A DNA stretch of 37,401 nucleotides from NCBI GenBank assembly GCA_902384675.1, contig CABMCT010000075.1, positions 1-37,401 on the forward strand, in the 5' to 3' direction. The DNA comes from an uncultured archaeon. GTDB taxonomy: Archaea > EX4484-52 > LFW-46. Shown piece after piece: positions 6,150 to 11,435 of this stretch. The notes under the pieces were generated by a model. The model was not told where the DNA came from and ran no database searches. It worked only from the letters and a program-made list of their open reading frames with translations. Each line of letters opens with the position of its first letter. The stretch's first letter is position 1. Made by a program: the position numbers and the translations under genes.

Positions 6150-9100
6150 CTACTGTACTGTAAACATGGCTTTGGCAATGCCGGATGCCTTATCAGTATC
6201 CAGCCTTATAAAGTATGCACTGCTGCCTGTCAGTTCGGTGCTGCCGAAAACCGCATAGTAAGTGCTGCCCGAGCTCAATTTAAGAGGCAGTGAAGCTGAT
6301 ACAGTGCCGTTTGTCGCAGAGTTCACTCTCATAACCGTTGCAGTTGCATTCGGTATATTGCTCATTATATAAACATTGTTGCTTGTGGTAAATACGGTTG
6401 TATTTGTGGATGATGAAGTCGAAGCGGATGTATGTGTCCACAGCTGCGGTATTGTGCCTCCTCCCGAAACTGGCGGCTGCACGGATATTATCTTGGTCTT
6501 GCTGCCCACATTGTCTATAAACACATTGATAACATATACCCCGGGGTAATCCAGCGCAACCGACAGGTTCGCAGAACCGCTTGAAAAGTCCACGCTATCA
6601 TTGCTATAAACAAGGCTTGAAGCAGCAGGGGAGTATACAGCCACTTTGCCTGTGACGGCAGAGGCTACGCTTATATTAACCGTTGTGGTGGTATTTGCAG
6701 TTATATTCGCTGCGGTTGTGATATTGATTGTATCCTGCGTGCCGTTGACCACATCAACAAGGGTAAAGCCGAATCCCTGCGAGCTGCCTGAAAATATAGC
6801 CACTCCTATCGGATACCTTCCCACTGCTTTTCTCTCGTTAGGTATTGCGATAGCCTGCTGGTACGGCTGGCTGCCTGATAGATTAAGCTGCATATCCCTC
6901 TTCCCTTTCTCTTTGTTAAATATCGCCATAAATCCGCCGGTTGCACTGATTGCTGCTCCGGATGTCCTGTTTGTCACTGTGATATTAATGCCCATTATGT
7001 CGCCGGGGTTATATTTGGATGCGTTCGGAGTTACCTTTACATTCAGCGAGCTTACAAGGAATCCCGAATACGACTGTATTGATGTGCCGTCAACGCTTGC
7101 CTGCAAATAGTAAGGACCGTCGCTTGAAGGCGCGCTTATCCCCTTCAATGTTGCAACACCGTCTGTACCTGTAGCCGCACTGCCTGCCTTGGTTGGGTTG
7201 GTCCCATCGGAACCGTACACAAAGCTAACCGTCCTGCCGGAAGCCGGGGTCCCGTTCGAATAAGTCAGCACCGCCTTGAATATTGCCGATTCATTTGACA
7301 TGTACGGCTGCATAAACGAGTGGTCCGCGGAAGCGCTCAACTGAAGCGAGCTTCCGCCGCTAACCCTGAGCGTCGCGGGCAGGGCAAAACCGGTATCCCC
7401 TGACGGCGTAGTCACCTTTATTTCCAGGCCATAGACCTGTACAGGTGCTTCCGAAGGTATTGTAAACGAAATAATCCCTATGCCGCCCGCGGTTGTATTT
7501 GAAGGCAGCACTTGCTGGCGGCCGAATGCCCATACGCTTGCCCTGACCTGCGAGCCGTCTGCAACAGCAGCGCCGCCGCTTGTTGCATTAACGCGTATAG
7601 TAACAGGCGTAGTGCCGTCGGCAGTCCCTGTGTATTCGTTATTCGGGAGAGCACCGCCGCCTGAATTCTGAAGCGTTATATTCAGCGAAGATACCTGAAC
7701 GCCGATAAAGAAGGGCTGGTTCGCTATAGTGACATTGACTAAAATATAATTGAACCCGGGTTGCGTGGCATTCAGCTTCAGCGACAATTTTCCGGTGTTA
7801 TCCGTAGAGCCGGTTGCACTTGTTACAAAAATATCGTTCGGAGGCTGCGCCTTGAATAGTGATGCGGCGATGGGGGTGTTGTTAACCGCGCTGCCGTTTT
7901 CAGGATATGTAATCGTAACATTAAGCGTTATGTTTTCATTAAGACTATAGCTGAACTTATCGGTTATTGCAGACACACTGAACTTGGTTACATCAAATCC
8001 GGTATAGAATGTCTGCTGCCCTCCGCCGGTGCTGGCCTTTACTTCAACATTATGATGGCCCGGTTTCCAGCCGCTTGAGAGGTTCAGCTGATTATACCCC
8101 ATGCTGTTGTTAGCGGCGTATGTCTGCCCTGCTGCTGCGCATCCTGCGCCAAAGCACTGAGACAGGGATGTTCCGTCAACCTTTACGCTTGAGATGCCAT
8201 TTGACTGGCCGAATGCCTGCAGGATAACATTATCGCTCTGGGTGTATGTGGGCTTGTCCGGCCTTATCTGCATTTCAATGCCCCGCACATCAAATCCATA
8301 CCATGTCTCGGCTGTGCTCACATCGCCTCCGTTATAGACGGATATTTTTATATGAAGATTATGCCAGCCGTATGACCATGTACTGCCGCTGGTGCTATAA
8401 GTGGATGGTGCAAGTGATATTGTGGCTTTGCCGTTCACAGTGGTGCCAACCGCAGGGGTGCTGCTTCCGTCAACATTCACTTCAACCGATGCAGTCAGCG
8501 GCTGGTTGTTTGACGAATTCAGGACACTGACAGTCAGGGCAACAGTATCGCCGGACTGGTAGCCAAACCGGTCTGTTGATGTCTGGATATTAAGGGTGCT
8601 TACCTGGACCCATTGGTCCGAAACCCCGAATTTATTTGAAGCATTAACTTTCGTAACGATATTATAAAATCCTACCTTGGACGGCATGGTAATGTTTATT
8701 GCGCCGACCCCGTTTGATATGTCTGTTGTGCTTACTGCAGCGCTGACAGGAAGCCCGCTGCCGTCCAGCATTTGCACAACAATCGGGGATGTATTAACCG
8801 GAATCGGCCCTGTTGAATTGAATGCAAATATCTTTCCTGTGGCTGTGCTGCCTGTACCGAAAGTAAAGCCTCCCAGATCAAGCCCTATCTGGAAATCATA
8901 AGCGTACATCGGCATCAGCATGGTCGATGAATATCTGGCAGTTCCTGATATATTCGTTGAATTGAGCAGCAGCAGGTATTTGCCGGCAGTTATGCCCAAA
9001 GCACTCGGGTTAAAGGTATTGTTTTCGAACCTCTGTGTCGTTGTATTAAATACAAGCGGCGAAGATGAAGATGCTGCGGACTTGTTCATGTACAGGATTA

Positions 9101-9785: not shown

Positions 9786-11435
9786 TTATGAAAGCATGTT
9801 GTATTTTGCTGTTAGTGCGTGCTTGATTACTCCTCTTGGAAGTGGCAGTGTTTTTGCCAGCTCGCTTACAAGAGACGTGGCGCCGTTAAGAGTCACATTG
9901 ACATTTGCCTGGCCGCCGGATTTGAGCACAAGCGGCTTTGAAAGATAAACCGTATCGCTCTGGGCAAAATACCCCATCCCGCCGTTATTGTCTATGCTCT
10001 GGAAATACATCGGGGCGCCTGAAGTCGCATTCGTCGTGTTGCTTACAATAGCGAACTGGTAAACAGGCCACGGCTGCTGACAGTTGCCTCCGCAGGATGT
10101 TGTCCAGCTCGTTTTCGGAATGGTCATGACAAACACTCCGGACGAATCGGTCACCGAGGAATTGATAAGCATCAGCCCGTCGCCTCCGCCTCCTTTATGT
10201 ATCTGGGCATAGACGACTGCCCCGGCGACATTGGCGTTTGTTTCATTGACAATCTTGCCGTATATCGTCGCGCGGTCTGTTGAATTCGAAACAACCACCA
10301 TCAGGCCTGTAAAGCCTTTGTACGGGAGCATAACCGGGAAATTATAGACGCCTGCATAAGGTCCGCTTGAAACACTGATGTTGATATTATACAGCCTGCC
10401 GCTCTGTAAAAACAACGGGGCCTCAAAGGAGCCGTCCAGGGCGGTCTGCGTTGAAAACAGGTTATTTGAAGTCCCATAGTCCTGGACATAAAATGATGAA
10501 ATATTTACATTAAAATCAAATGGTCCGCCGGGCCCGTCTGTAGTGGGTTTTAATGCGAACGGCTTTATAAAGCTTGCAGCCACAGGCACATTTAAAGAAA
10601 TTATCGAGGGCGTTCCGGGAGTCAGGTTGCTTAATGCGGATGTATTCGAAGAGGAAAAGTCAAAAGCATAAATTAGCTGGGACGAATTAACCGGGACTGC
10701 CGAGCATGTTGTATTCGGGCCGCTGCCGCTCATCTGGCATGGCGGAAAGCCGCGGTACATATAAGTATTATTTGGCGCAGGTCCTCCTTCGCCAAGACAT
10801 AAAGCGCCTGAAACAATCCCGACGCAGTGCGCTGCCCAGTATCCCTGGTCATCGGCTGCCGCAGGCCCGTTTGAAAGGTATCTTTTTGTGGAATTATCAA
10901 ATACCATAAAAATTGCATTTGGCACGCCGGTTTGCAATGCCGCATAGTTTATAGTAAACATAGTGGCGTTGGCTGTGCCCGGAATGTATGGAGCAGCTCC
11001 GTTGGCTGTGAGATTTATCTGAAAGGTTTTATTTGTGAATGCTGCGTTCTGGCTTGCATTCAGGACAACGTTGACGCAGGTGTCTGTAGGAGACTGGTTG
11101 TTGAAAACAGATGTGCCAATGACAAAGGCAGGGCCTGTGAGATTATTTGCCCATCGCGCAGAAACTATGCCGCTGCCGGAAACATTGAGCGGGCCTGTTC
11201 CATTATACCAGAAATTAAATTTCGAGACATTAAGATTTTGCGGCGTTCCGGCGCACACCTGGATAGTCTGGTTGCCCGCGGTATTGAATGCGTTGGTCAG
11301 GCAGGCAATCTGGTTATTGCAGAGAGACGGCGGGGGCCCTCCTGGGCCTCCATCGGCATAAATATCATTTCCGATTAAAAGAGCAGATGTAAGTAAGATA
11401 GAAAAAACTAAAAATACGTTTAAATTTTTCTTCAT
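9786..11435 (-). CDS. N-terminal part of giant secreted surface protein
   Basis: Signal peptide MKKNLNVFLVFSILLTSALLIGNDIYA; ends ...KYNMLS-TAA (9786-9788); frame continues as FTGNGATIPSSIILPFF... Confidence 0.82.
   Translation of the reverse strand: MKKNLNVFLVFSILLTSALLIGNDIYADGGPGGPPPSLCNNQIACLTNAFNTAGNQTIQVCAGTPQNLNVSKFNFWYNGTGPLNVSGSGIVSARWANNLTGPAFVIGTSVFNNQSPTDTCVNVVLNASQNAAFTNKTFQINLTANGAAPYIPGTANATMFTINYAALQTGVPNAIFMVFDNSTKRYLSNGPAAADDQGYWAAHCVGIVSGALCLGEGGPAPNNTYMYRGFPPCQMSGSGPNTTCSAVPVNSSQLIYAFDFSSSNTSALSNLTPGTPSIISLNVPVAASFIKPFALKPTTDGPGGPFDFNVNISSFYVQDYGTSNNLFSTQTALDGSFEAPLFLQSGRLYNINISVSSGPYAGVYNFPVMLPYKGFTGLMVVVSNSTDRATIYGKIVNETNANVAGAVVYAQIHKGGGGDGLMLINSSVTDSSGVFVMTIPKTSWTTSCGGNCQQPWPVYQFAIVSNTTNATSGAPMYFQSIDNNGGMGYFAQSDTVYLSKPLVLKSGGQANVNVTLNGATSLVSELAKTLPLPRGVIKHALTAKYNMLS

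Follow-up and report, generated by a model that had tools for sequence, protein, structure and literature searches.

An in-frame TAA in a giant surface-protein gene of a draft archaeal genome, probably a nonsense lesion and not a regulatory stop

The window considered here, the whole stretch of 37,401 nucleotides that was analysed, belongs to an archaeal draft genome of 1.2 Mb (76 contigs, ~89% complete) and carries on its minus strand, in this order, the genes for a 911-aa surface protein, giant A, anchor A, giant B, anchor B, and prefoldin (Table 1). By hydropathy, giant A has a signal-peptide-like N-terminus and no membrane span of its own. The gene that follows each giant encodes a protein with a signal peptide and a transmembrane helix, so that two units of a giant plus a membrane-anchored partner lie side by side. 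In the sister genome (G001), the syntenic place is occupied by the orthologue of the 911-aa protein, an uninterrupted giant of 2097 aa, a 505-aa anchor, and prefoldin. Relatives in which the 911-aa surface protein recurs are drafts that bear the labels Aenigmatarchaeota, ex4484_52, or Nanohalarchaeota, so that the present genome may be that of a DPANN archaeon close to ex4484_52. The C-terminal half of the 505-aa anchor matches anchor B at 37%, and its N-terminal half shows a weaker match to anchor A (30%, without composition correction); no recognisable homology of the 2097-aa giant to giant A or giant B was found. The two anchors of the window thus resemble the two halves of a single sister-genome anchor (L019, 15320-16837), a resemblance that suggests that a giant-plus-anchor cassette may have been duplicated or inserted.

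Table 1. Positions of the genes, gene parts, and in-frame stops of the window
Feature	Position	Strand	Description
911-aa surface protein	11528..14263	-	intact; upstream of giant A; 45% orthologue in the syntenic place in sister G001
Giant A, 5' part	9786..11435	-	549 codons; ATG; signal-peptide-like N-terminus; TAA at end
In-frame TAA breaking giant A	9788-9786	-	context CTT TCA TAA TTT ACC
Post-TAA stretch of giant A	9705..9785	-	27 codons with a strong in-frame coding signal; lacks a start codon
Giant A, 3' part	6150..9704	-	1184 codons from first ATG; weak MG2-like domain; no signal peptide or Shine-Dalgarno
Anchor A	5092..6129	-	345 aa; signal peptide and C-terminal transmembrane helix; partner of giant A
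Giant B, 5' part	3120..4943	-	607 codons; in-frame TAA at end
In-frame TAA breaking giant B	3122-3120	-	context TCG CAA TAA GTC AAT
Giant B, 3' part	1500..3119	-	32% match between its C-terminal region and that of a secreted 794-aa protein, intact in G005 (another family)
Anchor B	577..1485	-	302 aa; signal peptide and transmembrane helix; homologous to the 505-aa (G001) and 356-aa (G005) anchors
B3/4-domain gene	30254..30721	-	in-frame TAA at 30526-30524 and a downstream frameshift; between two topoisomerase VI genes

The two ORFs of giant A share one frame and are separated by a single TAA, the read-through of which gives 1761 residues. The frame directly 3' of the stop stays open for 1211 codons that are coding by codon statistics, and the first ATG is reached only after 27 of them, with no ATG, GTG, or TTG in the intervening 81 nt. 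This gap has an in-frame coding score of 0.34, which corresponds to the 89th percentile of real coding 27-mers and the 99.9th percentile of off-frame 27-mers, and the other two forward frames score below 0. The downstream ORF shows no hydrophobic N-terminus in its hydropathy (best 17-residue value 0.29 vs. 2.46 in the upstream ORF), and no Shine-Dalgarno was found upstream of it, in contrast to the next gene, anchor A, which is preceded by a strong one (AGGGGGAGGGGG). It nevertheless has the composition of an exported protein, rich in Ser, Thr, and Asn and with 45 N-glycosylation sequons. Coding continuity and the absence of a start or export signal therefore show both parts to belong to one protein: giant A is coding across its stop and has no independent downstream expression signals, as is the case for a nonsense-interrupted gene. 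The preliminary description of this DNA was exact on the frame, the stop, the distance to the ATG, and the length of the read-through product, and its views that the downstream ORF lacks a Shine-Dalgarno and is not an independent secreted gene are borne out as well. Pfam and PDB sequence searches with the read-through proteins returned weak matches only and no domain across the stop, and AlphaFold predictions made without an alignment were of low confidence (pLDDT 50 and 35) and were left unused. No homologue of giant A was found in the genus, order, phylum, or GTDB contigs, the order and phylum searches covering 34 genomes each.

Giant B has the same defect, as had been claimed, with an upstream ORF that ends in the TAA and a downstream ORF that begins at 3107. 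The sequence past its stop is also coding in frame and without a start or export signal, and for these reasons the two parts of giant B are likewise taken as one protein. In the whole window, only three pairs of adjacent segments of 120 or more codons lie in a common frame, giants A and B being two of the three, and chance adjacency does not explain the ORF pairs of the two giants. In G005, residues 756-1143 of giant B are matched by the uninterrupted 794-aa secreted ORF, in a significant alignment that stays clear of the giant B stop (residue 608), and the gene after this ORF encodes the 356-aa protein that matches anchor B. The G005 counterpart of the C-terminal part of giant B nevertheless plainly sits within one signal-peptide ORF.

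In-frame stops also interrupt other genes of the same assembly. The Kae1/TsaD gene (G000:C26, L097) has an in-frame TAA at residue 97 (846-844, minus strand), and its remainder looks intact; it is the only Kae1/TsaD match detected in the genome, the position of the TAA is a Glu in the sister species (82.6% identical overall), and all 28 of the 28 other Kae1 matches in the phylum are uninterrupted. An AAA_14/DUF4143 ATPase gene (G000:C32, L101) contains an in-frame TAG (3612-3614, plus strand) at a position that is Asp in the G001 homologue, and the B3/4-domain gene of the window combines a TAA with a frameshift. Including the two giants, five lesions were recognised in 462 kb of assembly, a count that is approximate, as the scan of ~462 kb with homology checks relied on judging candidate same-frame pairs by eye. 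Lesions of this type occur in the drafts of relatives at a similar order of magnitude (roughly three in ~591 kb, the sister included). They comprise a G005 giant split by a TAG into 787 and 1334 codons (L175, G005:C46, 8150-8152, plus strand), which aligns across its stop with the intact 2097-aa giant of G001, a G015 gene with an in-frame TGA, and a G017 secreted protein with an in-frame TAA. Two further candidates were rejected, a TAA in G001:C47 being a normal gene end and the candidate in G016:C13 a low-scoring region. Elsewhere in the window, a ThiI homologue (21979-22887, minus strand, 302 aa) covers no more than the first 50 of the 197 positions of the ThiI catalytic domain and looks truncated or internally deleted, and a Bro-N domain protein (27371-28207, minus strand) adjoins a PLD-like protein (28268-28948), the pair possibly representing a mobile-element remnant.

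Giant A is probably a single gene broken by a nonsense codon that arose as an error of the consensus, a strain variant, or a recent mutation, and not a regulatory device. Its product would be a surface protein of ~1761 aa, secreted and with many Ig-like domains. The gene lies directly upstream of that for its small membrane-anchored partner and is probably co-transcribed with it, and a single-base nonsense change is likely to have created the TAA at codon 550. The TAA may well be a base-level error or a minor-strain variant in the draft consensus, for which we would put the chances slightly short of even; that a weakly constrained gene has recently acquired a genuine nonsense mutation is possible, though rather unlikely. 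Should cells really contain the TAA, translation would end at it, leaving a 549-aa secreted fragment with the 3' two thirds of the gene silent. What speaks for errors, variants, or recent mutations is the absence of a recoding signal, the mixture of stop codons across genomes, the additional frameshift of the B3/4 gene, and the existence of uninterrupted homologues, and the one-ORF layouts of G001 (2097-aa giant and 505-aa anchor) and G005 (794-aa protein and 356-aa anchor) give further support. The stop in Kae1, of which a single copy was detected, cannot serve to regulate a surface protein and therefore points to draft errors or strain variants, or else to occasional decoding.

Two observations count against this explanation. 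Four of the lesions (giant A, giant B, Kae1, and the ATPase) are without an accompanying frameshift, and pure decay or error would be expected to add some. The lesions are also clustered, with three of the five on this 37-kb contig (binomial ~0.005, for a window that was selected for its lesions) and two of them in adjacent operons. The preliminary description had argued that two neighbouring operons with the same defect are hard to explain by chance; that argument is weakened by the sporadic stops in Kae1, the AAA_14 ATPase, the B3/4 gene, and the assemblies of relatives.

Functional readthrough, in which the stop is partly decoded, perhaps by a weak suppressor tRNA or leaky termination, to yield two forms of the protein, one short and secreted and the other full-length, is the strongest of the alternatives and is nonetheless improbable. 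The frame is fully open 3' of the stop, a stop is also present in the presumably essential Kae1, and in-frame stops recur in the giant surface proteins of the phylum, as seen in the TAG of G005; moreover, readthrough at in-frame stops of prokaryotic genes that remain functional has been argued from conservation (PMC7918605). Against this, no conserved stop position was seen as far as giant B could be compared, the giant B homologue of G005 and the giant of G001 both being uninterrupted, and the stop codon that is hit differs between genomes. RNA folding at the stops of giants A and B is no more stable than in shuffled sequences (z of -0.43 and +0.70), leaving no stimulatory structure, and the contexts TCA-TAA-TTT (giant A) and CAA-TAA-GTC (giant B), the comparison of which had been proposed earlier, show no relation to one another or to the contexts of the other lesions. 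Among the ~22-25 tRNAs recovered, an incomplete set, none has a UUA or CUA anticodon. Introns (up to ~120 nt) are present in many tRNAs of this genome, including the tRNA-Val (GAC) of the window (15262-15364, plus strand), with an intron of ~31 nt.

A related possibility, that a few TAA or TAG codons are decoded as an amino acid while still serving as terminators, so that the giants and Kae1 are all made at full length, is very improbable, and Glu would be the only residue indicated for such decoding, from the Kae1 alignment. It is similarly hard to credit that the downstream ORF of giant A is a gene of its own, expressed from the ATG at 9704 by reinitiation or from its own promoter. The ATG exists, and its short distance from the stop permits reinitiation in principle, but 27 coding codons precede it without a Shine-Dalgarno, the ORF has no signal peptide despite its sequons and exported-type composition, and the G005 counterpart of the C-terminal part of giant B lies within one secreted ORF.

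Phase variation commonly targets surface proteins. A stop toggled by slippage, inversion, or gene conversion would suit such targets and the adjoining position of the two giant cassettes, yet it is highly unlikely at this locus: no slippery tract, invertible repeat, or donor copy was found at the stops, nor any direct repeat or near inverted repeat around either of them, giants A and B have no recognisable common sequence for conversion, and the giant cassette locus is single copy in the assembly. The context-dependent or phase-variable stop that had been put forward as the interesting possibility is accordingly not upheld by the contexts, the folds, the repeats, or the intact giant B homologue. 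Partial reassignment of TAA (or TAR), e.g., to Glu, would accommodate the sister-species Glu opposite the Kae1 TAA and the acidic position of the TAG in the ATPase gene, but is the least credible reading, given that TAA terminates more long ORFs than any other stop codon (37 of 68), ends metG, sufS, top6A, top6B, and others, as the preliminary description had noted for metG in excluding a global reassignment, and is met within genes at only ~5 mid-gene stops in 462 kb, and that pseudogene in-frame stops and contamination are reported to give false signals of this kind in a survey of alternative codes (PMC8629427).

The stop in giant A as a new form of translational regulation is thus not supported. 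If the stops were real and translated through, this would be an archaeon in which UAA has an ambiguous meaning. In-frame stops in draft archaeal genomes are best checked against housekeeping genes of the same assembly, for which the broken Kae1 serves here as the yardstick. Among known systems, giant A resembles the secreted Ig-like giants of DPANN archaea in its signal peptide, beta-rich composition, many N-glycosylation sequons, and lack of a membrane anchor, as well as in the small partner encoded by the next gene with a signal peptide and a C-terminal transmembrane helix, an arrangement that G001 and G005 have alike; it differs from them in having no detectable homologue in the phylum and a frame broken by one TAA. 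With programmed readthrough or recoding it shares a lone in-frame stop beyond which the frame stays open over a long distance. The archaeal recoding cases reviewed involve UGA and UAG, with UAA not mentioned (PMC8211752), whereas the codon in giant A is UAA, for which no recoding element, conservation, or dedicated tRNA was found. Pseudogenes and sequencing errors are sources of in-frame stops in draft prokaryotic genomes (PMC7918605), and giant A is like such nonsense-interrupted draft genes in having a single stop in an open frame, in an assembly where the lesions are scattered and one is frameshifted; the only difference observed is that three of the lesions are clustered on one contig.
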